Assembly: GCA_900319795.1 (NCBI GenBank)
Contig: ONPU01000012.1
Location: 28,195-92,194, forward strand
From: an uncultured Eubacteriales bacterium
Lineage (GTDB): Bacteria > Bacillota > Clostridia > Lachnospirales > Lachnospiraceae
DNA length: 64,000 nt
Reading direction: 5' to 3'
Under the pieces are notes generated by a model that did not search any database, was not told the origin of the DNA, and saw only the letters and a list, made by a program, of their open reading frames with translations. This document shows positions 355 to 18,897 of this stretch, piece by piece; within the stretch, counting starts at the first letter, position 1, and every line of letters starts with the position of its first letter. The position numbers and the translations under genes are program-made.

Positions 355-407
355 ACTTTCAGAGAAATGTATTTTTGAAGAATTGTTGTATAAATCAGGC
401 TCCGCCG

Positions 408-597: not shown

Positions 598-1058
598 CCG
601 AACGAAAGCTCAGTATCGAGGAGCAGATCGGAGAAAATCTTGCTAAAGACCCGAATGAAGGCTCAATATGGAGGAGCAGATCGGAGAAAATCTTGCTGAA
701 GAACCGAACGAAGGCTCAAAAATGAGGCGCAGATCGGAGAAAATCTTGCTAAAGACCCGAACGAAGGCTCAAAAATGAGGCGCAGATCGGAGAAAATCTT
801 GCTGAATACCCGATCGAAGGCTCAATATGGAGGAGCAGATCGGAGAAAATCTTGCTAAAGACCCGAACGTAGGCTCAAAAATGAGGCGCAGATCGGAGAA
901 AATCTTGCTAAAGACCCGAACGAAGGCTTAATATTGAGGAGCAGATCGGAGAAAATCTTGCAGAATACCCGAACGGAGGCTCAATATGGAGGAGCAGATC
1001 GGAGAAAATCTTGCTGAATACCCGAACGAAGGCTCAATATGGAGGAGAAGATCGGAAA
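598..1058. repeat. 53-bp tandem repeat array 1
   Basis: Eight complete units and one partial unit repeat with an exact 53-bp period: CCGAAC-type starts fall at 598, 651, 704, 757, 810, 863, 916, 969 and 1022. No insertion or deletion occurs, despite base changes between units. Each unit reads CCGAACGAAGGCTCA, then a variable stretch, then GATCGGAGAAAATCTTGCT. TCGGAG is followed after 23 bp by CCGAAC. GCTC/GAGC and CCGA/TCGG give weak nested dyads in several units. The array is enclosed by the large inverted repeat. It is not a CRISPR: units are directly contiguous, with no unique spacers. Confidence 0.92.
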
Positions 1059-1115
1059 CAATACTGTTCCGAGGTGGAACCGGAGGCAGAAAACCGAGCC
1101 GCCGCTTGCGGTTTA

Positions 1116-1246
1116 CCCTTGACGGGTTCCGGAAGAGATGACAAAATCTGAAGTTCCGACGGTGCCCCAGTGAAGCGAGTACTGTTCCTGAGTCTGTCAC
1201 CGTCGGCATATCAATGTCACGCATCTCTTCCGGGTTCAGTCAAGGG
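1116..1246 (-). repeat. Nested hairpin element, right copy
   Basis: Inverted copy of 408-538. The outer stem pairs 1116-1140 with 1222-1246. The inner CCGACGGTG-type stem is also present, at about 1156-1166 with 1196-1206. Confidence 0.8.
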
Positions 1247-1283
1247 CGGCGGAGACTGATTTAAATAAAAATCTTTATATAAT

Positions 1284-1312
1284 AAAAGTCCGGGGTTTGC
1301 CCGGACTTTGTC
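1284..1312 (-). terminator. Terminator-like hairpin in right arm
   Basis: AAAGTCCGGG and CCCGGACTTT form a strong stem. Read on the minus strand it is followed by TTTTATTATAT. It mirrors the left-arm terminator, so both arms would terminate transcription directed towards the array. Confidence 0.5.
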
Positions 1313-1353
1313 TACAGTCTGAACAGACATAAATGTCTGTTATCATCTGCGGT

Positions 1354-1381
1354 CGCCAGATGAACATGTATGTTCACCTGG
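1354..1381 (+). promoter_or_regulatory. Hairpin/dyad over the loaP -35 region
   Basis: A 28-bp dyad: GCCAG-a-TGAACAT-gt-ATGTTCA-c-CTGGC. It covers the predicted -35 of loaP at 1373-1378. As DNA it could be an operator for a dimeric regulator. It lacks a following T-run, so it is unlikely to be a terminator. Confidence 0.55.
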
Positions 1382-1402
1382 CTCGTCGCTCTATGGTATA
1401 AT
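1373..1402 (+). promoter_or_regulatory. Predicted promoter of loaP
   Basis: An extended -10 (TGGTATAAT, TATAAT at 1397-1402) is preceded after 18 bp by TTCACC. The expected transcript would have a leader of about 85 nt before the loaP start at 1494. Confidence 0.6.
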
Positions 1403-1493
1403 GAAAAATCATTGAGCTCGCCTCAAGTACTTTCGCGAGAAAAACTTTTGGCACCGCAGTCAAAAACTATTACACATGAGAGGGGCATAGGGA

Positions 1494-1997
1494 ATGTGGT
1501 ACGTCATGCAGGTACTGAGCGGATACGAATTACGCGTCGCCGATGAATGCCGTGAGCGGATCATCAGGCCGGATGAGGAAGTATTCGTACCGACCTACGA
1601 ACGGAAGATGAAACTCCGCGGTGAATACCAGATCGTGGAGTCCAAACTGTTCCCCGGTTATGTGTTTCTCTCCACGGATGATGTGACAGACTTCCATATC
1701 CGCCTTCGCAAAATTGAAAAGCTGACCAAAATTCTGAAGACAGGCGACGTTTTTACGCCCCTTAACAAAGATGAAGAAGAATGGCTCCGCGTGGTCGGCG
1801 GCAAGGATCACCGCGTCACTTTCTCAGTCGGCTTCATCGAAGGCGACAAGGTGGTGATTACTTCCGGCGCCCTTAAGGGCTGGTCGGGCATGATCAAGAA
1901 GATCAACCGCCACAAGCGCACGGCTGTCATTGCCGGAAGTTTTCTCGGACGCAGCACGGACATTACGGTAGGGCTGGAAATCGTGTCAAAATCATAA
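1494..1997 (+). CDS. loaP: NusG-family antiterminator, LoaP type
   Basis: A 167-aa NusG paralogue that should bind RNA polymerase and promote processive transcription of a specific long operon. The N-terminal NGN domain (residues 1-105) starts MWYVMQVLSGYE and contains FPGYVFL, the usual RNA-polymerase-binding signature. The C-terminal KOW segment (about 115-165) contains GDKVVITSGALKGWSG. LoaP proteins are known to act on biosynthetic or polysaccharide operons through a leader hairpin. Here no long co-directional operon follows, since the next gene is convergent after 43 bp. Its target must lie elsewhere or be unusual. The ATG is preceded by AGAGGGG at 1479-1485. Distinguishing LoaP from housekeeping NusG rests on length and sequence style, not on a search. 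Confidence 0.8.
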   Translation: MWYVMQVLSGYELRVADECRERIIRPDEEVFVPTYERKMKLRGEYQIVESKLFPGYVFLSTDDVTDFHIRLRKIEKLTKILKTGDVFTPLNKDEEEWLRVVGGKDHRVTFSVGFIEGDKVVITSGALKGWSGMIKKINRHKRTAVIAGSFLGRSTDITVGLEIVSKS

Positions 1998-2039
1998 GAG
2001 CGCAAGGTTGCGTCGGTGCCCCACACACGCAATTCTCTC

Positions 2040-4973
2040 TCACTCCCCGATCAGGCTGACATCCTCCGCCTGCCGAAGCCCCAGAATATACTCGATGTCA
2101 TTTTCCTCATTTTTAATAAGATCCGCGTGCGCCGACAGGCGAACCGTGCGCCCGTCCGGCAGGTCCACGGTCATGATTTTCTCGGACCCGGTGATCGCTT
2201 TCACGAACGCTTCCGTGGCTTCCGCGTGAGGAGCGTTGTTGTATCCCCGGACCATCCTGCAGAACGCGCCGCTGTTCACGGTATCCGCGAATTCCCGGGT
2301 GTTCATGCCGAGCAGGTCATGAAGGCCGTGAATTACCGGCTCGTAGATAAGGCCACGGTCGGTTCTGCGTAGCAGGCAGATCGTGCTTGCCATATATTTC
2401 GACAGCACGTTCATCCGGTTCCGGTTCTCCATGATCTCCGTCACGTCGATGAGCATCGTCTGCCAGCAGGGTGCGCCGAAGCGGTCCGAAATCTGGCTGT
2501 GATCCGCCACATAGATATAATCTCCGCTCTTCCTGCGGATCCTGTACGGTTCAAGCTTCTCCTTCTGCCTCAGGAGCACTTTCTTGCAGCCTTCGACAAC
2601 GATCCCGCGGTCGTTCGGGTGGATCATGTTGATCAGCCTCTTGTCAAAGTACTGCTTGATCTCATTTTCGCTGTAACCGGTCATCCCCTGGAAATTCAAC
2701 CCAATATAGAGGAACTCCAGATCCTCAGCCAGAGTCGTTCTGATGTAGGCGCCCGGCATCTCAGAATTGATGGTGTGCAGCTCGGTTACGTCCTGGGCAG
2801 AGGCGTAGAACTTTTTGCCCTGGGCATCCTCATCAAGGAAATAGATCTTCAGATCAAGCCAGACTAACGCCCCGTTGGGCTTATAGGAGCGGATGATTCC
2901 TCTCGAGCCGACCGCCCAGTGCTCGATAGCCGCCTGAAGGAGATCATAGAACTTTTGCCGGTCCTCTTCGGGAAGCGTATCCTGAATGTGCACTTTCCGC
3001 TCTTCGAATACCGCCAGATCCAGTCCGACCAGTTCGTAGAACTGTTCATTGTAGCGGACGATGTCGATATCCTCGTCGTGCCAGCTGTAAAAGACAACCG
3101 GTCCCATCACGTTGTTCAGCATCGTATCGCTGTAAATATTCTCATCCAGGAACTCCCTCGTCCGAAGCTGCTGGTTATGCTTGAATTTAAAACCTCCCGG
3201 TTCGACGATCCCGGGTTCGGAAATGAGTTTCTCAAAATCCTTCACCGGCATCGGCCTGTAGAAGAAAAATCCCTGCATATAGGGGCACCCGAGTCCGCGG
3301 AGGAATTCCACCTGTCCGTCCTGTTCCACGCCTTCCACGATAATCGGCGTCGTCAGGTTCTTGGTCATATTGATGACCGACTCAAGGATATTGATGCCCT
3401 TCCGCTTTTCGTCCTCTTTGCTGATCCTCAGGAACTGCGCGTCCAGCTTGATCAGGTCCACGTTCAGCGAACGAAGCATGTTGAGGGAAGAATAGCCGGA
3501 ACCGAAATCGTCCATAAGGACGGCGAAACCATTTTCACGAAGCTTTAAGACGGCCTCACGCACTCCGGTCGAATCTTCGGCGCAGGCCGACTCTGTTATC
3601 TCGATCTTAAGGAGGTCTGTCGGCAGGTCATACTGCGCGGCGAGTTCCTTAAAGTGCCCCGGCACGTCGATCATTTCGATATCGATCTGCGAAACATTTA
3701 CCGAAATGGGAACGACCGGAATCTCTTTTAAAAGACACGCGCTCAGCCATTTGCATACGGATTCCCAGATGTAGACATCGAGTCTTGTCACAAGTCTGTA
3801 TTTTTCAAGAATGGGAACAAATTCTGCCGGAGAGAAGGTCGAGCCGTCCTGCAGATTCCATCTCGCCAAAGACTCCGCCCCCACGATCTTTCCGTTGGTA
3901 ACATGCACCTGCGGCTGGAGGCAGAACGAGATTTCATTTTTTTCAATAGCATGCTGGAAACGATACAGCACCTTGTACTCGTAAGTGTTCTTCCGGTGGA
4001 TCTCGGAACTGTACAGACGGATCCGGGTCCCCGTGTTGCCCTTCATTTCCTCGGTTGTAAGGGACGCGCGGTTGAAGAAATCCACGATCTGCGTGCCCGT
4101 ATTGTCGATCATCGCGATGCCGAAAATGGGTGAAAATCCTTCTATGAGGCTGATCTGGGAAATGACATCCGTGAGGCGCGAATGGAGAAGGCGGATCTCC
4201 TTCATGTCAAATGGCATCACGATGGCAAACTCCTCCTGGCCGACATACCCGGGAAATGCGCCGCTTTCTCTGCCGTAGTCCTTGAGGAGACGGCTGACTT
4301 CGGAAAGCAGGTAGTGGCCCGATTCCACGCCGTACCAGTCGGAAAAGCGTTTGTAATTATCTATGAAAATATCGATGATGCAGCACCCGGATTCGGGAGA
4401 AGGCATTTTTTTCTGAATATCACGGAAATAATACGGCCCTACGAGAAGCCCTGTCACCTCATCAGGAACGGCGGGAATATCCGAAATGGTCTCACTGTAA
4501 GCAGCAGCGTCCGGACTTCCTTCCACCCGCTGCTTCTGCTTCTCTATATCATAAATATAACAATGGACAATCCACGGCGGCAGGTCCAGCTCCGGGCCGG
4601 CAATGAGCAGCTGTCTCGTGGCAATCCATCTGTCATGAATTCCTTTCATGTGAAACTCACCGGAGAGAATTCCCTTCGGTGAAGCCGCGTTCAGCCGTTT
4701 GAGGAGCGTATCCGGCTCGATCAGCGCGCGGTAAGAGTCGCGGTCATCCTCCCGTACGAAATGATCCGCCGCATAGGAATAGAGTCTCTGAAAATCTCCT
4801 TCATGGAAAATGCCGCTGTATTTATCACTGACATGGTGAACAATGCGGAACGTCATCTCCCGCAGGTTAATTTCCAGAAGATCGTCATATGATGTTTTTT
4901 TCAGCTCCTCGGCGAGTGAATCGTCAGACTCTTCGCCCCCCAGAAAAACATTCCAAAGGTCCTTTTTTGTCAT
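2040..4973 (-). CDS. Degenerate GGDEF - EAL - PAS-PAS protein, probable c-di-GMP phosphodiesterase
   Basis: A 977-aa cytoplasmic signalling protein. Residues 1-160 form an N-terminal sensor-like region. A GGDEF domain spans about 175-325, with GQEEF at 245-249 in place of GGDEF, so cyclase activity is probably lost. An EAL domain (340-585) reads ESL at the EAL position but keeps the other expected catalytic residues: Asn in ISVNVS, Glu in EITES, DDFGSGYS (488-495), Lys in IKLD and Glu in EGVE. Two PAS-like domains follow (about 640-880). The start at 4973 has a GAGGG Shine-Dalgarno sequence 7 bp away; an upstream in-frame ATG lacks one. I infer that it degrades c-di-GMP, with the degenerate GGDEF acting as a regulatory domain. 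It is convergent with loaP. Confidence 0.88.
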   Translation of the reverse strand: MTKKDLWNVFLGGEESDDSLAEELKKTSYDDLLEINLREMTFRIVHHVSDKYSGIFHEGDFQRLYSYAADHFVREDDRDSYRALIEPDTLLKRLNAASPKGILSGEFHMKGIHDRWIATRQLLIAGPELDLPPWIVHCYIYDIEKQKQRVEGSPDAAAYSETISDIPAVPDEVTGLLVGPYYFRDIQKKMPSPESGCCIIDIFIDNYKRFSDWYGVESGHYLLSEVSRLLKDYGRESGAFPGYVGQEEFAIVMPFDMKEIRLLHSRLTDVISQISLIEGFSPIFGIAMIDNTGTQIVDFFNRASLTTEEMKGNTGTRIRLYSSEIHRKNTYEYKVLYRFQHAIEKNEISFCLQPQVHVTNGKIVGAESLARWNLQDGSTFSPAEFVPILEKYRLVTRLDVYIWESVCKWLSACLLKEIPVVPISVNVSQIDIEMIDVPGHFKELAAQYDLPTDLLKIEITESACAEDSTGVREAVLKLRENGFAVLMDDFGSGYSSLNMLRSLNVDLIKLDAQFLRISKEDEKRKGINILESVINMTKNLTTPIIVEGVEQDGQVEFLRGLGCPYMQGFFFYRPMPVKDFEKLISEPGIVEPGGFKFKHNQQLRTREFLDENIYSDTMLNNVMGPVVFYSWHDEDIDIVRYNEQFYELVGLDLAVFEERKVHIQDTLPEEDRQKFYDLLQAAIEHWAVGSRGIIRSYKPNGALVWLDLKIYFLDEDAQGKKFYASAQDVTELHTINSEMPGAYIRTTLAEDLEFLYIGLNFQGMTGYSENEIKQYFDKRLINMIHPNDRGIVVEGCKKVLLRQKEKLEPYRIRRKSGDYIYVADHSQISDRFGAPCWQTMLIDVTEIMENRNRMNVLSKYMASTICLLRRTDRGLIYEPVIHGLHDLLGMNTREFADTVNSGAFCRMVRGYNNAPHAEATEAFVKAITGSEKIMTVDLPDGRTVRLSAHADLIKNEENDIEYILGLRQAEDVSLIGE

Positions 4974-5050
4974 ATCGAACCCTCTTATCCATATATTACA
5001 TATGATATAATACTGGTGAAAAAAGGTCAATACAGTGGTATACTTGCGCT

Positions 5051-6526
5051 ATGTCATTTTCATCACTTGAATTCTATCTGCTGGCGGCAGCATGTGTCGC
5101 GGGGTACTATCTTCTCCCGCCGAAAGCCCGCCGGTTCTGGCTGCTTTTCATCTCTTTCATCTATTATGCCGCAGCGGGACCGGTATTTTTTGTGTTTCTT
5201 CTTTTTGCCGCCTTCACCACCTGGGCGGGCGCTCTGCGCGCGTCTGACGGCAGGAGAATTGCCGTCGCCATCCCGCTGCTTCTCGATTTCGGCGTTCTCG
5301 CCGCGTTGAAGTACAGCAATTTCGCGATTTCCATCATCAACCGGATTCCCCACGCGGAACTGCCGTATCTGAAATTGCTGCTCCCCTTAGGCATCTCATT
5401 TTATACCTTCCAGTCGGCCGGCTACCTTCTGGACGTATACTGGAAGCGCTGCGAAGCGGAGAAATCATTTTTCAAATATCTCCTCTTCGTCTCCTTCTAT
5501 CCGCAGATCATGCAGGGGCCGATCGGCCGCTACGGGACTCTGGCCCCGCAGCTTCAGACAGCCCACGCTTATGATCCGGAAAATATCCGCCGCGGCATCG
5601 TCCGCATCAGCTGGGGACTTTTCAAAAAAATGATCGTCGCGGACAACGCTGCCCTTTATGTCAACCAAATTTTTGATAATTATGTCACCTTAAGAGGCTA
5701 TGGCATCCAGGGCGTGCTCATGTACAGCATCCAGCTCTACGCGGATTTCTCCGGCGGTATCGACATCGCGATCGGAATCGCGCAGATGCTCGGCATCCGC
5801 CTCGACGCGAACTTCCGCCAGCCCTATTTCGCCGAGACCCTGACGGACTTCTGGCACCGCTGGCATATCACTTTGGGAACCTGGATGAAAGACTATCTCT
5901 TCTATCCGATCTCCCTTTCGGACTGGATGAGCCGCATGCGGAAATCCACCCGGAAGCGTTTCGGCCGGGATCTCGGCAGCGCGATCTGCATCGGCGTCGC
6001 CAACATCATCGTCTTTCTGGCCGTCGGCGTCTGGCACGGACCCAGCTGGCATTTTATCGTTTACGGGCTCTATAACGGCGTCCTCATTGCCATCGGCGGA
6101 CTCTTTACAAAACAGTTCCGGAAAATGAAAACCGCTCTTCACCTCACCGACCACACCCCCTGGTTTCGCGTTTTCAGGATCGCAAGGACCTTCCTGATCG
6201 TCAATCTCAGCTGGTATCTGGACCGGAGCAGTTCCCTCGGGCAGGCTGCAAGGATGCTGAAGGACTCATTCAGCACGAAAATATTCTCGCTTACCATCAT
6301 TTCTCCGGAGGATCCGCACTTCGCAATGCAGCATTTTGTGCCGATCGCGGCCGGATGCGCCGTCATTTTCATCGTAAGTGTTCTTAGGGAGAAGAAAAAA
6401 GATGTTGAAGGGACAATCGCGCGCCTTCCGTGGCCCGTGCTCGTCCTCATCATCACCGGAATTCTGATTCTTTCGGCCCTTTACGGAAACAGAGGAAGCG
6501 GAGGATTTATCTATGCGAATTTTTAA
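5051..6526 (+). CDS. MBOAT-family membrane O-acyltransferase (AlgI/DltB-like)
   Basis: A 491-aa multi-pass membrane protein. The FWHRWHITLGTWMKDYL segment (about residues 275-291) and the HGPSW histidine (about residue 335) are hallmarks of MBOAT acyltransferases such as AlgI and DltB. These transfer acyl groups to exported polysaccharides or teichoic acids. The next gene overlaps by 14 bp and encodes an SGNH/DltD-like partner, a pairing typical of AlgI-AlgX/PatB-like export and acetylation systems. The substrate cannot be told from sequence, as no polysaccharide synthase is adjacent. No clear Shine-Dalgarno precedes the ATG. A TATACT hexamer ends 6 bp before it, so a leaderless mRNA is possible. 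Confidence 0.88.
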   Translation: MSFSSLEFYLLAAACVAGYYLLPPKARRFWLLFISFIYYAAAGPVFFVFLLFAAFTTWAGALRASDGRRIAVAIPLLLDFGVLAALKYSNFAISIINRIPHAELPYLKLLLPLGISFYTFQSAGYLLDVYWKRCEAEKSFFKYLLFVSFYPQIMQGPIGRYGTLAPQLQTAHAYDPENIRRGIVRISWGLFKKMIVADNAALYVNQIFDNYVTLRGYGIQGVLMYSIQLYADFSGGIDIAIGIAQMLGIRLDANFRQPYFAETLTDFWHRWHITLGTWMKDYLFYPISLSDWMSRMRKSTRKRFGRDLGSAICIGVANIIVFLAVGVWHGPSWHFIVYGLYNGVLIAIGGLFTKQFRKMKTALHLTDHTPWFRVFRIARTFLIVNLSWYLDRSSSLGQAARMLKDSFSTKIFSLTIISPEDPHFAMQHFVPIAAGCAVIFIVSVLREKKKDVEGTIARLPWPVLVLIITGILILSALYGNRGSGGFIYANF

Positions 6527-7496
6527 ACGTCTGCTGCCCTTTCTTCTGGGCATCCTCTTCATCGTCCTTCTGAACGCGGCTCTCAATTACCTGCTGATTC
6601 CGTACCAGTTCACGAGGGTCAAAGTGCATAAGATCGAAACTGAAGGCTTTGACGACCTGATTCTCGGCAGCTCGCATGGAGGCACGGCTTTTGATCCGGA
6701 AACTCTGATGGCGGAAACCGGACGCAGCTGCTACAACGCCTGCGCGGGCGGGCAGTTCCCAATGGATAACTACTACCTGCTTCTCGACGCGCTGAGGGAA
6801 CACACTCCGAAGAGAGTCATCTTCGAATACGACCCGAACTACTGGATCGCGCTCGATCCTTTCAACAGAACGGCACGCTATCAGGAAAGTGTCATGGCCC
6901 CCTCAACGGTTCGCCTCGCCTACTTCTCGAAGCTTCTGCTTCCCGGCGACATCCGGTACGTCCTGATGCCCTGGTCGCTCTACGACAATGGTTTAGAAGA
7001 CATCCCGGGCATCGTGGAAAGAAAGCGGTCCGACGCGTACAAAAATTACGGTGTCGAGCCATTTTACGAAAAAGGAAGTCAGGCCTGCGACGAAAACGGA
7101 TTCCTTTTCATCCCTGACGGCGTCGGCGGCGACCCGAAGATCCCGGAGCTCTTCTATAACGAAGGCATGGAACACATTGTCGCCAAAAACCGCGCGTACT
7201 TCGAGAAAATCGTCCGTCTCTGTCAAAAGGAAGGCATTGAGCTCGTTGTCGTCACCACTCCCGTTCCCGCTGCCACAAGAGAGGCGGCGGAGGAATTCTA
7301 CCGCACCGCGCACAAGTGGATGAGTGATCTTCGTACCGCTTACGGCTTTACCTATCTGGACTTCGTTCTTCCTTCTGAAAATGACGTCCCTCTGCCCGAC
7401 CTGTGCGAAGACCCTGACGCGTTCTCGGACGGCGAAGGCCATATGCATATCTCCGCCGCCGGAAGATTCACGAAGGAGCTCGCTTCTCTTCTGTAA
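6513..7496 (+). CDS. SGNH/DltD-like membrane-anchored protein, MBOAT partner
   Basis: A 327-aa protein with an N-terminal signal-anchor (residues 5-27) and an extracytoplasmic domain. The GSSHGGTAFDP motif near residue 52 resembles the SGNH block I serine of DltD/AlgX-like proteins. A C-terminal GEGHMHIS segment could supply the catalytic His. It starts 14 bp inside the MBOAT gene, so translation is coupled. It is likely to take the acyl group moved by the MBOAT protein and place it on a cell-surface glycopolymer. The exact acceptor is unknown. Confidence 0.78.
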   Translation: MRIFKRLLPFLLGILFIVLLNAALNYLLIPYQFTRVKVHKIETEGFDDLILGSSHGGTAFDPETLMAETGRSCYNACAGGQFPMDNYYLLLDALREHTPKRVIFEYDPNYWIALDPFNRTARYQESVMAPSTVRLAYFSKLLLPGDIRYVLMPWSLYDNGLEDIPGIVERKRSDAYKNYGVEPFYEKGSQACDENGFLFIPDGVGGDPKIPELFYNEGMEHIVAKNRAYFEKIVRLCQKEGIELVVVTTPVPAATREAAEEFYRTAHKWMSDLRTAYGFTYLDFVLPSENDVPLPDLCEDPDAFSDGEGHMHISAAGRFTKELASLL

Positions 7497-7530
7497 ATGT
7501 CTGACATAACCTTTGCCTTAAGGGCACTAA

Positions 7531-7564
7531 AAAATGGCTGCCGCTTCACTGCGGCAGCCATTTT
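7531..7564. terminator. Bidirectional terminator
   Basis: AAAATGGCTGCCGC-ttcact-GCGGCAGCCATTTT is a perfect 14-bp stem flanked by A and T runs. It lies between the convergent SGNH gene and the MBG-repeat gene. Confidence 0.85.
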
Positions 7565-7592
7565 CATATGTCTTGTGAACCTTTTCCACTAT

Positions 7593-10175: not shown

Positions 10176-10186
10176 TGAAAACAATA

Positions 10187-10215: not shown

Positions 10216-10278
10216 TATGGTAAGTATTTCTGTCATTTTCCCTGTTGACATATTTTCAATTACTGAAAGGATTGCACT

Positions 10279-11517
10279 ATGAAAAACAGAAAAATGAACC
10301 ATTTCAAACGCACGCTGGCACTCCTTTTCGCCGCCGTGCTCGCCATTTCCTCAACCGCGACCTCTGCGTTCGCCGCGAAGCAGAAGAAGGAACCGACCAT
10401 GATCAGCTACCTGACCGGTCTCGAAATCCGGAAAAAGAGAGCTGAAAGACGTCCGATCGCGCTCATGATCGAAAACGATCTGGAAGCCTCCAAATGGCAG
10501 AGCGGAACCGGCAACGCCGACGTCCTCTATGAAGCTCGCGTCGAGGGCGGCATTACCCGCCTCATGGGCCTCTTTGAAGACTACCGCTATATCGACAAGA
10601 TCATGCCGATCCGCTCATGCCGTCCGCAGTTCGTCTACTATGCCAGAGAATTCAAGGCATTTTACGGACATTACGGCCAGGTCATCTACGCGGTACCGCT
10701 CCTTCAGATGACGGAATCCTACGACATCGCAGGCCTTCCGTATGGTGAAGACGGCCAGCAGTACAGACTGAACGACGGCTCCCCCGCCTACGGCCGCGAC
10801 CATTCGGGTGTGACGGGTGTTTTCACGAACTACGACAAGCTGCAGGCCTTTATCTCGGACTGGGGCTGGAACAGAAAATATCCCTCGGATTACGAAGGCC
10901 ACTACAAGTTCTGCAAAGAGGGCGAAGAGGTCAATCTTGACAGCGATATCACGGCCAATGTCGTGCTTCCGGGCTTCAAGAGCAATCACTCGAGACTGGA
11001 ATACAACGAAGCGGACGGCCTCTACTACCGCTCCGAATTCGGTGATCCGCAGATCGACCATCTGGACGGCAAGCAGCTGGCATTCAAGAACATCCTGATC
11101 CAGATCGGCCCGTCCTACGACCTCGACGGACGCTACATTTTCACAGACCCGGTGAACGGCGGCAATGCCGGTGAGGGTTGGTACATTACGAACGGCAAGG
11201 CTGAGCGCATCACCTGGCAGAAGGAAAACTGGAGCGCGGATGATCCCATCATCGAGACCGTAACCGCCGCCCAGCACGTCTTCGACGTCCGCGAATGCGA
11301 CTTCAACGTCACCCGCTATTACGACTCTGAGGGCAATGAAATCACGCTGAACACAGGCAAAACGATGGTCGAAATCGTCCGCGATTCCGACGCCTCCGCG
11401 CTCGTCATCTCCGATGACCTCTCCACGGACAGCTACATCATCGACGGCATCGGCGAAAAAGAAGGTTCTATCGGCAAACTCATCCAGAACGGCACAACTA
11501 CCGACTGCTACGCATAA
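10279..11517 (+). CDS. Exported DUF3048 (YerB-like) protein
   Basis: A 412-aa protein with a signal peptide (cleavage likely after SAFA, about residue 32) and no lipobox. The DUF3048 N-terminal domain (about 50-190) contains RPIALMIEND, a GNADVLYEARVEGGITR segment and IMPIRSCRPQF. The C-terminal domain includes ITWQKENWSADDPI and NTGKTMVEIV, as in the YerB family. The family is common in Firmicutes and its function is poorly known; a cell-envelope role is likely. It is transcribed alone and ends at a strong terminator. Confidence 0.85.
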   Translation: MKNRKMNHFKRTLALLFAAVLAISSTATSAFAAKQKKEPTMISYLTGLEIRKKRAERRPIALMIENDLEASKWQSGTGNADVLYEARVEGGITRLMGLFEDYRYIDKIMPIRSCRPQFVYYAREFKAFYGHYGQVIYAVPLLQMTESYDIAGLPYGEDGQQYRLNDGSPAYGRDHSGVTGVFTNYDKLQAFISDWGWNRKYPSDYEGHYKFCKEGEEVNLDSDITANVVLPGFKSNHSRLEYNEADGLYYRSEFGDPQIDHLDGKQLAFKNILIQIGPSYDLDGRYIFTDPVNGGNAGEGWYITNGKAERITWQKENWSADDPIIETVTAAQHVFDVRECDFNVTRYYDSEGNEITLNTGKTMVEIVRDSDASALVISDDLSTDSYIIDGIGEKEGSIGKLIQNGTTTDCYA

Positions 11518-11533
11518 TTAAGTGCATGATACA

Positions 11534-11564
11534 GCGAGCACCTGCCGAAACGACAGGTGCTCGC
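11534..11564. terminator. Terminator hairpin between DUF3048 and GH3 genes
   Basis: GCGAGCACCTG-ccgaaacga-CAGGTGCTCGC is an 11-bp GC-rich stem between convergent genes. The T-run is poor on both sides, so efficiency is uncertain. Confidence 0.6.
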
Positions 11565-11598
11565 CTTCAGGATGGTATTCAAATGAAGAACTGGTTGT

Positions 11599-13803
11599 TT
11601 ATTCCAAGAAGCTGCAGCTGAGCTCAAGACTCTTCTTTCCGGTCAGTGCAGCTGTCCGCTCATCCGGCTGGCCGAAGCCGATGTAGAACGAGATCCGTTC
11701 CGCGTCGATGACGCGCTCTCCGTCCTCATTGACCACAGTCACCGCTCTTGCCGGAATCTTTAAGGAGTATGTCTCCTCCTCACCGGCTTTCAGAACGATC
11801 TTCCGGAACGCGGCAAGGTGCGGATGATCCGCTTCATATGCCGATCCTTCAGCCTTCGCGTAGATCTGGAGCACTTCATGGGCATCCCTTGTCCCGCTGT
11901 TCTTTACTGTCACTTCCACATCCAGAACCGGCTCACCCTTGCGGTTTTCAAGAGTTTTGAGAACTTCTGCCTTCGAAAGTGTTTCTCCATCTTTAAGGGC
12001 TGCTTTTACGACGTCCGCCTTTCCGTATCCGAGGCCGAAACCAAACGGATACAGCGGTTCCCCGGTAAGATACCGGTAGGTTCTCCCCTTCATGCTGTAG
12101 TCCTCGAAGTCCGGCATTCCACGCAGATCCTTGTAGAATGTCACCGGCAGTTTTCCTTCCGGTTCCTCTTCGCCAAAGAGGATCTTCGCCACGGCACGGC
12201 CGCCGCGGCCACCGGGGTAAAATGCCTGAAGGACGGCATTGGCATGCTGGTCCGCGAACTGCAGATCCATCGCGCTTCCTGTCATATTGATCACGATCAG
12301 CGGTTTCTTCAGCTCCGCGATCGCCTCAAGCAGCCTTCTCTGGGACTTCGGCAGCTTCAGATCTTCCTTGTCTCCGGAGGCATAGGCATTGCCCGTATCT
12401 CCTTCTTCGCCTTCCATCGTCTCGTCGAGGCCAAGTACGAGAATCGTCAGATCCGAACGTTCCGCGACAATCTGCGCCTCGGCGATCCGGTCGTCCGGCT
12501 GCGCCAGATTCTCCTCGCGGTCCTTAAACTTATGGCATCCGCTCGCGTAACGGACACGGACGTCGTCTCCCAGATAGTCCTCGATTCCTTCCAGAACCGT
12601 GATATAACGGGAAGAAGTACCGTGATAATTGCCCGTCAGAGAAGAACGGTCATCGGCATTGGGACCGATCACGGCGACGCTCTTCAGCTTGCTCTTGTCG
12701 AGCGGAAGAAGGCCGTCATTTTTCAGAAGAACTACGGAACTGAGGGCCGCTTTTTCAGCCAGATCCCTGTGCTCCGGACAATCCACCAGATCATAGGAAA
12801 GCTTGTCATAGCCCGTCTCATCGAACATTCCCAGAAGAATCCGTGTCGTGAAAAGCCGCACCGCCGCCTCGCGGATCAGATCCTCGGAAAGATCCCATTC
12901 GTGATAGGCCTGCATGATATTCTGATAGACGCATCCGCAGTTGAGATCGCATCCGGCGTCAAGCGCCTTCACTACCGTCTCCTCGGCGGAAGAAGTCACT
13001 TTATGGTGCTCATGGATGTCCAGAAGGGCCCAGCAGTCGGATACAAAGTGGCCCTCAAAGCCCCATTTTCCGCGGAGAATTTCCTTCATCAGATAGGGAT
13101 GCGCACAGCACGGATCCCCGTTTGTCCGGTTATAGGCGCCCATGACGGACTCCACACCGGCCTCCCTGACACATGCTTCGAACTGGGGCAGATAGGTCTC
13201 CCACAGATCCTTTTTCGAACACACCGCGTCGAACGAGTGACGAACGGCTTCGGGTCCCGAATGTACCGCAAAATGTTTCGCGCACGCGGCCACCAGCATA
13301 TAGCCGTCATTTTCAGACCGGAGATCCTCCGCGTCTTCAAAGCCGTCCATATCCGGAACCTGTCCCTGAAGCCCCGCGATAAATGCCTCGGCGAGCATCG
13401 TGATCAATTCCGTATCTTCGCCGTAAGTCTCCTGCCCGCGTCCCCATCTCGGATCGCGGAAGAGGTTAATATTCGGCGACCACATCGTGATCCCCTTATA
13501 AATATCGCGGTCTTCATGAGCAATGGATTCATTGAATTTTGCGCGGGCCTCAAGTCCGGAGGCTCTGCCCGCCTTAAAGAGAAGCTGTGGATCAAAACTC
13601 GCTCCGAGGCCGATCGCCTGTGGGAACATTGTCGCTGTTCCGGCACGCGCTACGCCGTGAAGGGTCTCATTCCACCAGTTATAGGAAGGAATTCCGAGAT
13701 CCTCGATCGCCGGCGCGTCGAAGCGAAGCTGAGAAGCCATTTCCTCAACTGACATCTGGTTTACGAGTGCCTCTGCTCTTTTTCTGGCTTCCTGTCTGTT
13801 CAT
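11599..13803 (-). CDS. Glycoside hydrolase family 3 (beta-xylosidase/beta-glucosidase)
   Basis: A 734-aa cytoplasmic enzyme without a signal peptide that should release sugars from imported oligosaccharides. The N-terminal GH3 barrel contains NWWNETLHGVARAG, FRDPRWGRGQETYGED and AKHFAVHSGPE. The nucleophile Asp lies in FVSDCWALLDIH, near residue 255. A C-terminal GH3 sandwich and a fibronectin-like domain follow (about 600-734). The NWWNETLHG pattern is common in GH3 xylosidases, so beta-xylosides are my first guess; beta-glucosides remain possible. It is divergent from an AraC regulator and close to a MalFG-type importer, which suggests one utilisation locus. Confidence 0.92.
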   Translation of the reverse strand: MNRQEARKRAEALVNQMSVEEMASQLRFDAPAIEDLGIPSYNWWNETLHGVARAGTATMFPQAIGLGASFDPQLLFKAGRASGLEARAKFNESIAHEDRDIYKGITMWSPNINLFRDPRWGRGQETYGEDTELITMLAEAFIAGLQGQVPDMDGFEDAEDLRSENDGYMLVAACAKHFAVHSGPEAVRHSFDAVCSKKDLWETYLPQFEACVREAGVESVMGAYNRTNGDPCCAHPYLMKEILRGKWGFEGHFVSDCWALLDIHEHHKVTSSAEETVVKALDAGCDLNCGCVYQNIMQAYHEWDLSEDLIREAAVRLFTTRILLGMFDETGYDKLSYDLVDCPEHRDLAEKAALSSVVLLKNDGLLPLDKSKLKSVAVIGPNADDRSSLTGNYHGTSSRYITVLEGIEDYLGDDVRVRYASGCHKFKDREENLAQPDDRIAEAQIVAERSDLTILVLGLDETMEGEEGDTGNAYASGDKEDLKLPKSQRRLLEAIAELKKPLIVINMTGSAMDLQFADQHANAVLQAFYPGGRGGRAVAKILFGEEEPEGKLPVTFYKDLRGMPDFEDYSMKGRTYRYLTGEPLYPFGFGLGYGKADVVKAALKDGETLSKAEVLKTLENRKGEPVLDVEVTVKNSGTRDAHEVLQIYAKAEGSAYEADHPHLAAFRKIVLKAGEEETYSLKIPARAVTVVNEDGERVIDAERISFYIGFGQPDERTAALTGKKSLELSCSFLE

Positions 13804-13851
13804 AAAATATGCCCCCGCCTGTACAACTATATACTTCCAGAAACGTTAAAT

Positions 13852-13864
13852 ATCTGAAGCAGAT
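13852..13864. promoter_or_regulatory. Dyad in the GH3/AraC divergent promoter region
   Basis: ATCTG-aag-CAGAT lies in the AT-rich gap between the two divergent genes. It is a plausible operator, but only one short dyad was seen. Confidence 0.3.
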
Positions 13865-13938
13865 TGAAATTATAAAAAAAATGTGCGATAATTTTATAGA
13901 TATTTATTATTTATTAGACAATACGGGAGGATCCTCTT

Positions 13939-14874
13939 TTGTCCGAATCGAAAACTATCGTTCCGGAACGCTACAGTCAGCCTGACCGCTATGACGGCCG
14001 CAGAGTTGACGGTTCTTATGAGGAAGTACATTATATTGCCTCTACCCATGTCCGTCTCTGGTACAACTACCAGGACGACTGTTATAAGCCGCACCATCAT
14101 GCCGCGCTTGAAATCATCCACGTTGCAGAAAACAGCTATCATGCAATCGTCAATGAACATGACTACATTCTCCACCCGGGTGACTTTCTGTTTATTCCGC
14201 CCAATACGCTGCATGAGCTGGAGCCGATAGGGAAGGGAGCCCGTTATATCTGCCTTCTCGACCTGAGCCCTCTTCACGAATTCATGGATTATCAGGTGAT
14301 CGGTCCGCTGCTTGTGGACGGATACCTTTTGAACGCGGAGCGCTCTGCGCAGCTTTACGCGGAGGTCTCTCAGCTCTTCCACGAAGCTGCTGATGCTTAT
14401 TTTGCAAATAAAATGCTCTGGGAAAGCACGGTCTATATCCGTATGTGCCAGATCCTTGTCCGGATCGGGCGCGATCACTATCGTACCCAGGCCGCTATCT
14501 CCGGCACTCCGGAGCGTGCTGTCCGCAAGGAGTATGAAACGCTTGCCGCTCTCCTAAGCTGGCTGGATACGCATTACTCCGAAGATATTTCCCTGGAAGA
14601 CGCCGCAGAACGGTCCGGTTTCTCGAAGTATTATTTTACGCGTCTTTTTAAGCAGATCACAGATACGACTTTCGGCGACTATCTGGCCAGAAAACGCATC
14701 TCCGCCGCCTGCGGCATGCTTTCAACGGACAGCTCCATTACGGATATCGCGTTCAGCTGCGGTTTCAACAATCTGACCACGTTTAACCGCTGTTTCAAAA
14801 AATATACGAAATGTTCTCCGAGTGATTACCGGGCAAGCCTTCGAACCGAGCATTTCGGAGAAACCTTCTTCTAA
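13939..14874 (+). CDS. AraC-family transcriptional regulator
   Basis: A 311-aa regulator starting at TTG, set by a GGGAGG Shine-Dalgarno sequence 8 bp upstream. An N-terminal cupin-like sugar-sensing domain (about 20-160) includes PHHHAALEI and HPGDFLFIPPNTLHE. A C-terminal pair of helix-turn-helix motifs follows (about 205-300), with ISLEDAAERSGFSKYYFTRLFK and ITDIAFSCGFNNLTTFNRCFKK-like segments. It most likely controls the divergent GH3 gene and the ABC importer in response to an oligosaccharide. Confidence 0.9.
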   Translation: MSESKTIVPERYSQPDRYDGRRVDGSYEEVHYIASTHVRLWYNYQDDCYKPHHHAALEIIHVAENSYHAIVNEHDYILHPGDFLFIPPNTLHELEPIGKGARYICLLDLSPLHEFMDYQVIGPLLVDGYLLNAERSAQLYAEVSQLFHEAADAYFANKMLWESTVYIRMCQILVRIGRDHYRTQAAISGTPERAVRKEYETLAALLSWLDTHYSEDISLEDAAERSGFSKYYFTRLFKQITDTTFGDYLARKRISAACGMLSTDSSITDIAFSCGFNNLTTFNRCFKKYTKCSPSDYRASLRTEHFGETFF

Positions 14875-14896
14875 AAGACTTTTTCTCCTGATTCTA

Positions 14897-14930
14897 TACA
14901 CGGGATGCCTATAGCCGGGCATCCCGTATA
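14897..14930. terminator. Bidirectional terminator
   Basis: ACGGGATGCC-tatagcc-GGGCATCCCGT stem between the convergent AraC and permease genes, with AT-rich flanks. Confidence 0.7.
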
Positions 14931-14944
14931 TATTTGCAGTCGGA

Positions 14945-15799
14945 TTATCCCTTGACGCCGCCGAGAGCCACACCTGCCACGATGTATTTGGAAAGAAGCA
15001 GGTACAGAATGATCAGCGGAAGAACCGTCAGGGTCAGTCCCATATAAACTGCGCCGTATTCGGTTTTGTAAATGTCGCCGTTCAGAAGGGATGTCATAAT
15101 CGGAAGCGTGTACTTTTCCTTATCCGTCAAAAGAACGAGCGGTGTAAACAGGTTGTTCCAGCTTGCCACGAACGCGAAGATCGCCTGGGTTGCCAGAGCC
15201 GGCTTCATGATCGGAAGGCAGATCCTGTTGAAAATGAAGAACTCTTTCGCGCCGTCTATTCGCGCCGCTTCCACGAGCTCTTTGGAGAGCGTCGGGATCA
15301 TGTACTGTCTCATGAAGAACACGACGGACGGAGCCGCGATTGCCGGAAGGATCAGCATGATCAGCTTATTGGTCATATGGATCTTGTAAACCATCTGATA
15401 GAAACCGATCATGGTCACCTGACCCGGGATCATCATGACCGCAACGATGAAGCTGAAGAAGATATTTTTCAGTTTCCAGTCGTACATGACGATCGAATAA
15501 GCCGTCAGTGTTGAGAAATAGATCGTGCAGAGCGTCGCACCGACCGAAATGATCAGGGAGTTCTTGAAACCGACCGCAGGATTGAAGCTCTTGCCTGTCA
15601 GAATCGAGAAGTTCTTGAGCGCATAGCCCGACGGAATCAGTGAAATCGCGTGTGCCTGAATTTCTGTCGTCGATCTTGTCGCGTTGACGATCATGATAAT
15701 GAACGGCATGAGCGAAACGATCGCCAGAATAATCAGAAAAATATACATCAGGGCACGGAGTACGGGGTTGCCGCGATATTTTCTGTCAGCTTTTTCCAT
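14945..15799 (-). CDS. ABC sugar permease, MalG/UgpE type
   Basis: A 284-aa inner-membrane permease with six predicted transmembrane segments. The EAA loop reads EAARIDGAKEFFIFNRICLP, which docks the ATPase. It forms the second permease of a carbohydrate importer with the gene upstream; the TAATG overlap couples the two. No ATPase gene is adjacent, so a shared MsmK-like ATPase encoded elsewhere is likely. Confidence 0.92.
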   Translation of the reverse strand: MEKADRKYRGNPVLRALMYIFLIILAIVSLMPFIIMIVNATRSTTEIQAHAISLIPSGYALKNFSILTGKSFNPAVGFKNSLIISVGATLCTIYFSTLTAYSIVMYDWKLKNIFFSFIVAVMMIPGQVTMIGFYQMVYKIHMTNKLIMLILPAIAAPSVVFFMRQYMIPTLSKELVEAARIDGAKEFFIFNRICLPIMKPALATQAIFAFVASWNNLFTPLVLLTDKEKYTLPIMTSLLNGDIYKTEYGAVYMGLTLTVLPLIILYLLLSKYIVAGVALGGVKG

Positions 15800-16809
15800 T
15801 ACGAGGCCCTCCCTTCATTCTTTCTCCTCTCAATTTCAGCCTTCATCCAGGCTTTCTGTTCCTTCTTGATCCGGATCTCATCCTTATCTCTCATGATGTA
15901 GAAGAGAACCAGCGAGCACGCTACCATGATCGCGAACATGATCATGGACGCCGCGGCAGCTCTGTTGTACATATAGCTGCCCTTGAACGCCTGGTTGTAG
16001 ATAAAGACGCTGGTTGTCAGTGTTGCGTTGTCCGGGCCGCCCTGCAGGAAGAGCTGCGGGATATCGAACATGGCAAGACCGCCGATCAGAGATGTAACCA
16101 GAACGTAGAGAAGAATGGTGCGGATGTTCGGCAGCGTCACATAGAAGAATGTCTGGAACTTGTTGGCGCCGTCGATTTCCGATGCCTCGAAGATGTCAGG
16201 GCTGATGCCCAGAACGCCGGCAATCAGCATGATCATCGTATTGCCGTACCACATCCATGTCTGAATGAAAATGATGACTCCCTGCGCAGTCGACTTATTC
16301 TGAAGGAAATAGACCGGCTTTTGCGGGAGATGAAGGAACGGGAAGAGTTTCCCGACGCTTAAGACGAGATCGTTCATCGGGCCCATCGGATATCCGAAAA
16401 GAGCTCTGAACAGGATCGCGATCGTCGCTGCCGTGATGATGTTCGGCATGTAGTAGAGAACCTTGAAAAGGCCCTGTCCCTTGATTGTGGAACGTCTGTC
16501 CGTAAACCAGGCCGTAAGCAGAAGTGCAAGGCAGATCTGCGGTACAAAGTTGCTGAGCCAGATCTTTACGGTATTTTTAAGAGCTGTCCTGAAGAGGTTG
16601 CTGCCTAAAATCTGTTTGAAGTTTTTAAACGGATCATCTTTCAGAAAATGAATCTGCGTCATGCCGAGACCTTTAAGGTCCGTAAAGCCGATAGCCAGTG
16701 TATAGACGATCGGATAAAGCATGAACAACAAGAACGCAATCGTAAACGGCAATGCAAAGATGTAACCGTACTTTGCGTATCCGCCTCTTTTTTTCATTCT
16801 TTTTCCCAC
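15799..16809 (-). CDS. ABC sugar permease, MalF/UgpA type
   Basis: A 336-aa multi-pass membrane protein, the first permease of the CUT1 importer. The EAA loop reads EASEIDGANKFQTFFYVTLP. The C-terminal tail is highly charged (RIKKEQKAWMKAEIERRK). It follows the binding-protein gene after 106 bp that contain a strong hairpin. Confidence 0.92.
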   Translation of the reverse strand: MGKRMKKRGGYAKYGYIFALPFTIAFLLFMLYPIVYTLAIGFTDLKGLGMTQIHFLKDDPFKNFKQILGSNLFRTALKNTVKIWLSNFVPQICLALLLTAWFTDRRSTIKGQGLFKVLYYMPNIITAATIAILFRALFGYPMGPMNDLVLSVGKLFPFLHLPQKPVYFLQNKSTAQGVIIFIQTWMWYGNTMIMLIAGVLGISPDIFEASEIDGANKFQTFFYVTLPNIRTILLYVLVTSLIGGLAMFDIPQLFLQGGPDNATLTTSVFIYNQAFKGSYMYNRAAAASMIMFAIMVACSLVLFYIMRDKDEIRIKKEQKAWMKAEIERRKNEGRAS

Positions 16810-16841
16810 CCTGTCATAAATATGAAGACCATTTACCTACT

Positions 16842-16866
16842 TGCGGGGGCTTTATAGGCCCCCGCA
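16842..16866 (-). promoter_or_regulatory. Intercistronic hairpin between binding protein and permeases
   Basis: TGCGGGGGC-tttatag-GCCCCCGCA forms a 9-bp GC stem without a T-run on the minus strand. Such stems usually protect the upstream mRNA and lower expression of downstream permeases relative to the binding protein. Confidence 0.6.
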
Positions 16867-16915
16867 GTTGAAATTTCGAATTAAATTATGTCACCGGATA
16901 AGATTCGGATGATGA

Positions 16916-18265
16916 TCACTCGACAGTAACGTCAAGGTTTTCACCGACCTGCTCCTTGAAGGAAGCGATTGCTTCGTCACGGGTCTTCTCGCCATGAGCG
17001 TATGCACGAACCTGATCTCTCCAATACAGGTTGATGGTCTCGTCATACTGTGTCAGGTTCTTGCCGTTCGCATATTCATTCGCCGGAATGAAAGCTTCGA
17101 ACATATCCTGGCCGCCGAGGAAATCAAGAGATCCGTCGGAATTTTCAAGAACTGTTCCGGAAGCGACGCAGTCCTTTGTGCCGCCTTCGCCGTTCAGAGT
17201 GCCGTTTGCCCACTTATACTGAAGGCCGTCTTCTGTGCAGTTCAGAGTGATCCAATCGATGATCTGGCCAACAGCTTCTTTCTTTGTGGAGTTCGTATTG
17301 GCCAGCAGCCATGTGCCGCCCCAGAAGAATCCGATCGGAGGAGCGCAGACAGCCCAGTCACCGTATGTGCCTTCGCCAACAGCTTCGCCGCCGCAGTTCG
17401 GAGCCAGTGTGTAGTTGATCAGCCATGCCGGTCCGAAGAAACCGAAGATCGGCTTTTCGCCTTCGCCCTTCATATCGGCGAACCATGCATCCTGCCAGTC
17501 CTGAGTATCATTTTCATAACCATTGTCATAGAGCTGCTTGGACAGATCGAGGAACGCTTCTCTCTTCGGATCGATGTTCAGAGCGCCGTCTACAACCCAG
17601 CCTGTGTCAGAGCTGTTCTCAACTGCGTGCCAGATGTCGCCGTCGCCGGAAACAATGCCGTAGCCCTTAGCCTTCAGCTCTTCAGCTGCTGCAAAGAACT
17701 GATCCCAGCTGCCGGAGCCCGCGCCGATCTTCTCAGCGACTGTAGCCGGATCATCTGTTCCCCAGACATCCTTAGCGATGCTTCTTCTGTAGATGAAAGC
17801 GCCGCCTGTTGCCTGATATCCAAGACCGACAACCTTGCCGTCCGGATTGGTTCCGATATCGACAGAGTACTGAGCGATCTTCGCGTCAGCGATTTCCTTT
17901 TCAACATCGATGCCGAGATCTTCATAAGGAGCTGCATAGCTGCTCATGTCGCCCTGTGTATATTTCAGAACGAATGCAGCTTCTGCGCAATACAGATCCG
18001 GAGCATCTTCGCCGCCGGAAGCCAGAGCCTGGTCCAGAGCCGGCTGATAAGCGCCCTCGGTTGTAGCAATGATCGTTTCCTTGATTTCATACGGGAAATC
18101 CGGATTGGCTTCTTTGAACTTCGCTACCATTCCCGGAACTTCGTCTGTGAATGTCCAAAGGTTGATGACTTCTTTTTCTGCTGCTGCAGTCGGAACTGCC
18201 ATGCCAACGAATGTTGAGCAAGCCATTGCAGCTGTAAGCAGGATCGCAAGTGCTTTACGTTTCAT
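16916..18265 (-). CDS. Family 1 extracellular solute-binding protein
   Basis: A 449-aa secreted sugar-binding protein of the CUT1 importer. The signal sequence MKRKALAILLTAAMACSTF contains a Cys but no good lipobox, so lipid anchoring is uncertain; cleavage near PTAAA is possible. The mature part has the ABC-type periplasmic fold (INLWTFTDEVPGMVAKF, then DLYCAEAAF). AAGGAGGA lies 7 bp from the chosen ATG; the longer frame to 18316 has none. Linkage to the GH3 enzyme suggests plant oligosaccharides as ligand. Confidence 0.9.
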   Translation of the reverse strand: MKRKALAILLTAAMACSTFVGMAVPTAAAEKEVINLWTFTDEVPGMVAKFKEANPDFPYEIKETIIATTEGAYQPALDQALASGGEDAPDLYCAEAAFVLKYTQGDMSSYAAPYEDLGIDVEKEIADAKIAQYSVDIGTNPDGKVVGLGYQATGGAFIYRRSIAKDVWGTDDPATVAEKIGAGSGSWDQFFAAAEELKAKGYGIVSGDGDIWHAVENSSDTGWVVDGALNIDPKREAFLDLSKQLYDNGYENDTQDWQDAWFADMKGEGEKPIFGFFGPAWLINYTLAPNCGGEAVGEGTYGDWAVCAPPIGFFWGGTWLLANTNSTKKEAVGQIIDWITLNCTEDGLQYKWANGTLNGEGGTKDCVASGTVLENSDGSLDFLGGQDMFEAFIPANEYANGKNLTQYDETINLYWRDQVRAYAHGEKTRDEAIASFKEQVGENLDVTVE

Positions 18266-18530
18266 ACTGTTCCTCCTTGGTTTTCCTTTTTTGGGTGACT
18301 CGCCTCGCGCAGTCACCAGTAGCTTGTTGAGTCCATTCTATCCCTTTAACGTTTTCGGGTGCTTTACAGAACTTGCCCCGGAGGGCACAGATCTTGCTAA
18401 AATGCACAGCAGTTTACAAATATTGCGGCGTTTTCATGTATACATTGCACAAATGTTGCGATATTGCAATCGTTTAAGGGGTTGGGCGGGGCCGGAGCAA
18501 GATTGAGCCTCACTTTTTGCGTTTCACGAA
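18266..18530. other. Upstream region of the binding-protein gene
   Basis: No gene seen. A TAGAAT hexamer on the minus strand near 18335-18340 could be the -10 of the binding-protein promoter. GTGACT..AGTCAC (18294-18315) would form a hairpin in the leader. TTGC-gatatt-GCAA near 18453-18467 is a small dyad of unknown meaning. Confidence 0.35.
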
Positions 18531-18536
18531 AGTTTT

Positions 18537-18897
18537 CCGAACTGATGGCCTCATAGCAAGCTTGGTTCGGAGTCCTCAACGAAAAATCTCCGAACTGAAA
18601 GCCTCATAGAGAGATTGCTTCGGAGTTTTTAGCGAGAAATCTCCGAACCGAAGGTCTCAAAGCAAGCTTGGTTCGGAGTCCTCAACGATTTTTCTCCGAA
18701 CTGGTGGCCTCATAGAGAGATTGGTTCGGAGTTTTTAACGAAATACCTCCGAACCGAAGGCCTCATAGCAAGCTTGGTTCGGAGTCCTCAACGAAATATC
18801 TCCGAACCGAAGGCCTCATAGCAAACTTGGTTCGGAGTCCTCAACGAAATATCCTCGAACTGGTGGTCTCATAGAGAGATTGGTTCGGAGCTTTCAA
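18537..18897. repeat. 53-bp tandem repeat array 2
   Basis: Seven units with an exact 53-bp period: CCGAAC-type starts at 18537, 18590, 18643, 18696, 18749, 18802 and 18855 (the last altered to CTCGAAC). Most units form a clear stem, CTCCGAACC with GGTTCGGAG around a 20-nt loop, followed by a 15-nt linker. TCGGAG to CCGAAC is 23 bp, the same as in array 1. Two subtypes alternate irregularly, GAAGGCCTCATAGCAAGC and TGGTGGCCTCATAGAGAGA. There is no coding potential and no spacers. Confidence 0.93.

Follow-up and report, generated by a model that had tools for sequence, protein, structure and literature searches.

The analysed window, 64,000 bp of contig ONPU01000012.1 (positions 28,195 to 92,194, forward strand; assembly GCA_900319795.1, an uncultured bacterium of the family Lachnospiraceae), contains two tandem repeat arrays, array 1 and array 2 (Table 1), whose counterparts elsewhere in the genome and in related genomes accompany a gene for a PD-(D/E)XK-like protein. 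Tandem Repeats Finder (TRF) placed array 1 at 593-1056 (8.8 copies) and array 2 at 18536-18890 (6.7 copies), and the 53-bp period free of indels that had been reported in the initial annotation was confirmed for both (period 53, 0% indels). The motif proposed there, TCGGAG-N17-CCGAAC, was matched 26 times in the window with up to two mismatches, compared with 8.2 matches expected and a maximum of 21 in 100 shuffles, and 20 of the 26 fall inside the two arrays. A better description of either array is a series of dyads CCGA-N26-TCGG with 19 bp between them, the half-sites alternating at exactly 30 and 23 bp. This dyad occurs 15 times in arrays 1 and 2 and 3 times in the remainder of the window.

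The bases outside the shared half-sites and the adjoining (C)GAAGGC(C)TCA had been described as strongly different between the arrays. This holds for an ungapped comparison, in which the consensus units agree at 24 of 53 positions, a chance value equalled by 45 of 400 shuffles, and a more extensive sequence likeness was rejected on that basis. With gaps admitted, the stretch CCGAAC(T)GAAGG(C)CTCA in the alignment of the two units outscored all 1000 shuffles. The CCGAAC...TCGGAG span is exactly 36 bp in array 1 and in the gene-flanking array of contig C5 of the same genome, although aligning these two arrays requires 5 inserted and 5 deleted bases, as predicted by selection for spacing.

Three further arrays in the 30/23 register were found in this genome outside the window, two on contig C5 and one, with six dyads in the register of arrays 1 and 2, on contig C10. 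The C5 element has the order hairpin, 12 dyads, gene, 11 inverted dyads, hairpin, and the gene between the two inverted arrays encodes a protein of 265 aa. The family of this partner protein had no convincing match in Pfam, NCBIfam or PDB sequences. The last ~125 residues of the 265-aa protein align with the end of the PADLOC candidate model PDC-S68 (E 6e-25) and also match HEAT_CxxC_PDDEXK (E 1e-3), and a PHROGs search with the family returned weak endonuclease and Holliday-junction-resolvase matches. By these similarities, the C-terminal domain is probably PD-(D/E)XK-like. Sixteen columns are invariant in 59 relatives, and those of E161, D192, E207 and H208 (numbering of the L191 protein) are taken here as putative active-site residues. 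The protein is basic ahead of the last 135 residues, with a mean net charge of +5.7 there and of -0.3 in the last 135 (n = 115). An empty site of the C5 element was not demonstrated in 21 same-genus loci (19 genomes), because among the flanking genes only pth was found in these loci.

The association of the arrays with the gene was evident in the loci of the best-scoring homologue matches, which are not a random draw. Across 116 genes, those of loci L073-L192 after removal of duplicates, the first 600 bp upstream (65 kb in all) contain 42 phased arrays, compared with 3 in the 578 kb that lie 1.2-10 kb upstream. Among TRF arrays of period 30-120 bp, periods on the helical ladder described below made up 42 of 49 near the gene and 9 of 37 far from it (Fisher p 9e-9). 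In total, 129 non-duplicate loci were available, 111 of them with at least 600 bp upstream; 63 of the 111 have a phased tandem array, locus-specific in sequence, within about 0.5 kb upstream, and two have an array of another period. In the genus of the analysed genome, an upstream array of period 52-85 bp was present at 16 of 27 loci, several loci being cut by contig ends, and at 8 of the 27 the gene is flanked on either side by ladder-range arrays, whose order is direct or inverted. No gene recurred as a neighbour (up to 1.5 kb away) at more than 10 of 99 loci, and the recurrent neighbours look, by eye, like housekeeping genes (rpsI, rplM, guaA, and carB).

The position of the arrays (53 of 71 upstream arrays end 20-220 bp ahead of the matched gene region) would suit ordinary autoregulation, with the upstream arrays as operators of the gene and the distant arrays as operators of a small regulon. 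This explanation is decidedly improbable in view of the size of the largest upstream arrays (15-17 copies in L047 and L057), the loci with arrays on both sides of the gene, and the complete genome G282, where only one of 12 array clusters with an open reading frame (ORF) on both sides sits between divergent ORFs as called mechanically.

The periods of the 70 upstream arrays at 35-90 bp form a ladder. Forty-five lie at 52-54 bp (six at 52, 29 at 53, and ten at 54), 12 at 62-64 bp (two, four, and six), 8 at 71-75 bp (one each at 71 and 73, three each at 74 and 75), and 2 at 85-86 bp (one each), with single arrays at 39, 41, and 44 bp; the bins 45-51, 55-61, 65-70, and 76-84 bp are empty. The step is about 10.6 bp, and the mean phase is 0.00 at h = 10.6. 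The phasing persisted when arrays of the 53-bp class were removed (V-test p = 2e-8, n = 25) and in the own-genus arrays (n = 16, p = 7e-6). Downstream arrays did not enter the phase tests, nor did periods below 35 bp, namely 31 bp in the main set and 33 and 29 bp among the own-genus arrays. For 16 upstream arrays given by TRF as 104-108 bp, half this value was used (identity at half period 0.54-0.86). Upstream of the 46 gene loci without a TRF array, autocorrelation was highest at 52-53 and 63-64 bp, followed by 41-42 bp and, lower, 73-74 bp, with lesser peaks at 36, 44, 50, and 61 bp and a raised baseline. The period is thus variable elsewhere, which the initial annotation had named as a finding that would refute it, but it varies mainly in steps of one helical turn. 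A-tract curvature is not claimed, the AA autocorrelation peaking at 8-10 bp and not cleanly at 10-11 bp.

Within the units, the arms of the dyads were better conserved than the remainder in 30 of 34 arrays (p 5e-6), with a slight bias towards the arms possible as these were picked by complementarity in the consensus; mean column conservation was 0.91 in the arms and 0.83 in the filler. The filler therefore also repeats, unlike the unrelated spacers of CRISPR, which was rejected as a candidate (cas genes were not searched for). Among arm mismatches, 67 were G.T, 61 A.C, and 104 other, and G.T did not exceed A.C (p = 0.66). Repeated RNA hairpins, such as a type III toxin-antitoxin-like RNA or a leader, would explain the complementary arms and the coincidence of the A-rich strand with the gene strand in 61 of 67 arrays. 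They are nevertheless very hard to credit with this mismatch pattern, with periods that follow the turn of B-DNA, and with no Rfam match in the window. Type III toxin-antitoxin systems (ToxIN) resemble the present loci in the tandem repeats upstream of a small nuclease gene; the ToxIN repeats act as RNA, whereas no RNA signature was found here, and no ToxN-fold toxin was matched in Pfam among the 26 family members scanned. As regards a single-strand hairpin as a possible acting form, there was no strand-specific wobble bias, and the periods fit double-stranded DNA. Of the functions considered in the initial annotation, selection for spacing and half-sites together with helical phasing is strongly supported by the ladder and by the conservation of the arms, and the RNA hairpins are disfavoured.

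Half-sites are common mainly to similar proteins. Of the 34 protein pairs with an identity of at least 58%, 14 have arms in common over at least 6 bp, as opposed to 5 of the 912 less similar pairs, and Mantel correlations across 44 arrays were 0.32 for the N-terminal and 0.20 for the C-terminal half of the protein (both p <= 0.0002). The proteins of L100 and L105, for example, are 65% identical and have the half-site TGATGCTTT in common, with periods of 62 and 73 bp. Pairs of TGATGCTTT span 37 bp in G120 (6 of 6) and 48 bp in G277 (6 of 6), a difference of one turn. In 24 other genomes, 13 pairs were found, spread over 9 of them and spanning 29-51 bp.

Homologues of the partner protein (E <= 1e-10) were detected in 122 of 397 Lachnospiraceae genomes, some possibly in the C-terminal part only, as counted among the matches listed with at most six candidates scored per genome; some genomes have at least six. 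In the same genus, 16 of 42 genomes carry a homologue, two of them C-terminal only. In a phylum-wide draw, 11 of 398 genomes gave matches, of which five, all from Lachnospiraceae, were near full length and six began only at residue 76-154. The best 80 of 575 named loci include six from Treponema and two from Fibrobacter metagenome-assembled genomes (contamination possible). In the phage, plasmid, and viral collections, the C-terminal domain only was matched in four viral contigs, six plasmid records, and two phage records; the exception is one unverified 4.2-kb faecal scaffold that covers 88% of the protein. Relatives were recovered with the family alignment as query, and a contig scan with the single protein gave none. 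Several homologues (in G009, G021, G090, G044, G257, G167, and G058) lie less than 1 kb from a contig start, as if the flanking repeats broke short-read assemblies at these loci, and the system may, at a guess, contribute to the fragmentation of these assemblies.

The patchy occurrence, the array sequences that vary between loci, the array placed upstream and close to the gene, and the match of the C-terminal domain to the candidate defence models PDC-S68 and HEAT_CxxC_PDDEXK would all accord with a DNA sponge, or antitoxin in the form of DNA. The arrays would then keep a toxic or defensive nuclease inactive when bound and repress its gene, distant arrays would add titration capacity, and array loss or incoming DNA would release the nuclease. 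This is considered unlikely, although less so than the other alternatives: the loci lack a partner gene and any neighbour above the frequency given above, the defence-model match is limited to the C-terminal domain, and a local switch does not need distant arrays. PDC-S68 itself shares the C-terminal nuclease-like domain with the present family but consists of models of ~1200 positions, only the last ~130 of which match here.

Arrays with the same half-sites and no gene were found in six genomes examined, namely the analysed genome, G043, G120, G277, G282, and G414; in those probed by half-site, their spacing is fixed and their filler variable. Neither these arrays nor the PD-(D/E)XK-like gene had been foreseen in the initial annotation. 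In G282, the half-site ACACGTAATT occurs 72 times, as against 13 times for the reversed pattern. With one mismatch allowed, the stretches analysed contain 14 clusters of at least two sites, 13 of which keep a 32/39 (71-72 bp) register; L270 is out of register, and L269 is in register bar one outlying site. Ten of 13 clusters overlap no ORF of at least 90 aa, and three overlap one by 42-104 bp. In G043, 32 TGCAACG/CGTTGCA pairs span 37 bp (23 pairs), 38 bp (8), or 36 bp (1) at eleven places on five contigs, and the 14 other genomes used as a control yielded six pairs in four genomes, with spans of 28-43 bp and none of 36-38 bp. The G043 arrays are alike in blocks (e.g., L295 1505-1670 and L296 7613-7448 at 94%), and 65 of 100 ends of shared stretches are no more than 4 bp from a half-site border, compared with 28% of array positions. 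A full dyad stands at both array ends in 5 of 5 arrays of the analysed genome (judged in register), 11 of 12 in G282, and 7 of 11 in G043.

ParB/parS and MatP/matS are chromosome folding and segregation systems, and the protein with its arrays might provide comparable anchor points. Multi-site arrays scattered on one chromosome, such as the 14 clusters of G282 at 1.08-2.82 of 2.86 Mb, are in keeping with such a role, which nonetheless appears rather improbable for homologues that occur in only about a third of genomes, reach at least six per genome in some, and go with widely differing half-sites. In iteron/Rep and parS/ParB systems, phased binding sites adjoin the gene of the binding protein, as they do here, but the units there are ~20 bp long, whereas the present units measure 53-86 bp and their half-sites vary widely. 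No Rep or Par protein was matched in Pfam among the 26 members, and no recurrent neighbour exceeded 10 of 99 loci within 1.5 kb. Nothing was found in support of the partition- or origin-like role that the initial annotation had entertained.

The preferred interpretation, held with slightly more confidence than doubt, is that the arrays form the DNA half of a two-part chromosomal system, with the ~265-aa PD-(D/E)XK-like protein as the other half, and that the arrays disperse much as REPINs do with REP-associated tyrosine transposases (RAYTs), but with another nuclease. It draws on what computation has established, i.e., the association with the gene, the ~10.6-bp ladder, the conserved arms with variable filler, the sharing of half-sites, the gene-less arrays, and the prevalence of whole dyads. 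One protein dimer would bind each dyad. With unit lengths differing by whole turns, all dimers would come to lie on one face of the helix and might form one cooperative complex. The nuclease, or repair provoked by it, might copy or move blocks of dyads to other intergenic sites, and the system would then amount to a family of chromosomal repeats with a dedicated nuclease, comparable to REPINs with their RAYTs.

Bertels and Rainey (2011; PMC3116915) present RAYTs as tyrosine transposases, REPINs as predicted to form hairpins in single-stranded DNA or mRNA, and evenly spaced tandem REP arrays in P. fluorescens SBW25. The REPIN/RAYT system shares with the present one a chromosomal nuclease gene linked to its inverted repeats, gene-less copies in extragenic space, and evenly spaced tandem arrays. 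The present system differs in its PD-(D/E)XK-like protein, in sites that resemble dyads of double-stranded DNA, and in periods that count in helical turns. Repeats that flank the nuclease gene and recur without it in extragenic space were indeed found here, and no REP-associated tyrosine (HUH, IS200-like) transposase was matched in Pfam among the 26 members. REPIN/RAYT is the known system that the present one most resembles in its working, but the present one is not regarded as a member, because its nuclease falls by its matches in a different superfamily and its geometry fits double-stranded DNA. There is about an even chance that it represents a new class of nuclease-repeat partnership, in which a PD-(D/E)XK-like protein reads arrays of whole dyads set at whole helical turns, specificity shifts fast while phase is kept, and blocks are copied as units. 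The initial annotation knew of no described element with this layout, and in open papers (preprints not covered) neither arrays of this kind nor the protein family was found described.

Several observations weigh against the two-part system with block dispersal. No TRF array was found at 46 of the 111 loci. Periods off the ladder occur at 71 bp (L074 of G282; L258), 81-82 bp (L259), 39 bp (L114), and 31 bp (L122), and downstream at 49 bp (L243) and 98 bp (L240); the p-values are optimistic, as the loci are related and best-scoring. The rank correlation of half-site with protein similarity over all pairs was nil (rho 0.001), and 13 of the 34 protein pairs at 58% identity or more share at most 4 bp of arm, although in some of the 13 the automatic arm choice looks wrong. 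Shared stretches that end near half-sites would be expected if the half-sites were simply the conserved part, and the stretch shared by L297 and L298 extends 13 bp past the last half-site. Finally, dispersal could reflect homologous recombination or hitch-hiking with insertion sequences (IS), the latter because a hairpin in L224 adjoins a reading frame recognised by eye as IS3-like.

If the two-part interpretation is correct, a system so far unrecognised, linking a nuclease-like protein with highly regular non-coding DNA, is present in about a third (122 of 397) of the genomes sampled from a major family of the gut. The many natural pairs of protein and DNA site, different in specificity and equal in geometry, would make the evolution of sequence recognition directly testable, and selection for helical phase would act on non-coding DNA across species.

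Table 1. Coordinates of array-related features in the 64-kb window.
Feature	Position	Strand	Description
Array 1	598..1055	.	9 dyads CCGA-N26-TCGG, exact 53-bp period (30/23)
Array 2	18537..18888	.	7 dyads, the left arm of one degenerate; 30/23 register as in array 1
Element A	316..1321	.	Inverted-repeat element with array 1; ends CAGACTGYAGACAAAGTCCGGG
Left terminal hairpin of element A	398..591	+	88-91% identity to hairpins around the C5 gene-flanking arrays
Right terminal hairpin of element A	1063..1258	-	Inverted copy of the left hairpin
20-bp palindrome, left copy	296..315	.	Exact duplication flanking element A, target-duplication-like
20-bp palindrome, right copy	1322..1341	.	Exact duplication flanking element A

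Array 1 lies inside an inverted-repeat element of ~1 kb (element A, Table 1), a point not made in the initial annotation. The inverted arms are 370-591/1063-1284 (87%) and 294-374/1263-1343 (78%), and no homologue of the partner gene was found within the element (stretch L041). When the two flanks of the element are joined, the resulting sequence matches a repeat at another site of the genome (94.6% over 93 bp). Inverted ends and a flanking duplication are features of IS or of miniature inverted-repeat transposable elements, and together with this flank match they suggest that element A was inserted with target duplication. The duplicated 20 bp are a palindrome, so that a duplication and an inverted end are indistinguishable and the insertion is suggested, not shown. 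A palindromic module of sequence AACAGACATAAATGTCTGTT (or a variant), accompanied by a TATAC/TATAAT-like stretch, recurs at several places of the genome (L008, L009, L011, and L012 near 1501-1540; window 296-315 and 1322-1400), and one copy hosts element A.

The terminal hairpin of element A, likewise not mentioned in the initial annotation, also surrounds related arrays elsewhere in the genome, with a second element on contig C5; among the genome places matching the hairpin, none adjoins array 2. This hairpin (~170 bp) is kept in two other genomes of the genus: G414 has five copies (L219-L223), all located at contig ends or close to them, and G430 has one, that of L224 mentioned above. The G414 arrays behind the hairpin share GCTGGGGTT and the period of 64 bp with the gene-flanking arrays of G414, and no partner-gene homologue was found on the G414 stretches examined that carry hairpin-associated arrays.

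Just past element A starts a NusG-family gene (Pfam NusG; 1494-1997), which we presume, as a guess, to be LoaP-like. Array 2 is neighboured by a 466-aa ORF (16916-18316, minus strand), without a Pfam match at E 1e-5, and by a haemolysin-III-family gene (19083-19769, plus strand). Short tandem copies of REP-like palindromes with a GGGACAGTCCC-type core are located at 62866-62930 and 62963-63026, the second set overlapping an ORF (62961-63806, minus strand) without a Pfam match at E 1e-5. Palindromic repeats of 33/34 bp with a GGTGCCAGACCCC core were observed at 33191-33323 and 35066-35207. The first set is inside a MetH-like ORF and, judged by its position, falls in the linker that joins the pterin- and B12-binding domains, and a similar repeat is present on contig C10 (L042 8707-8773).

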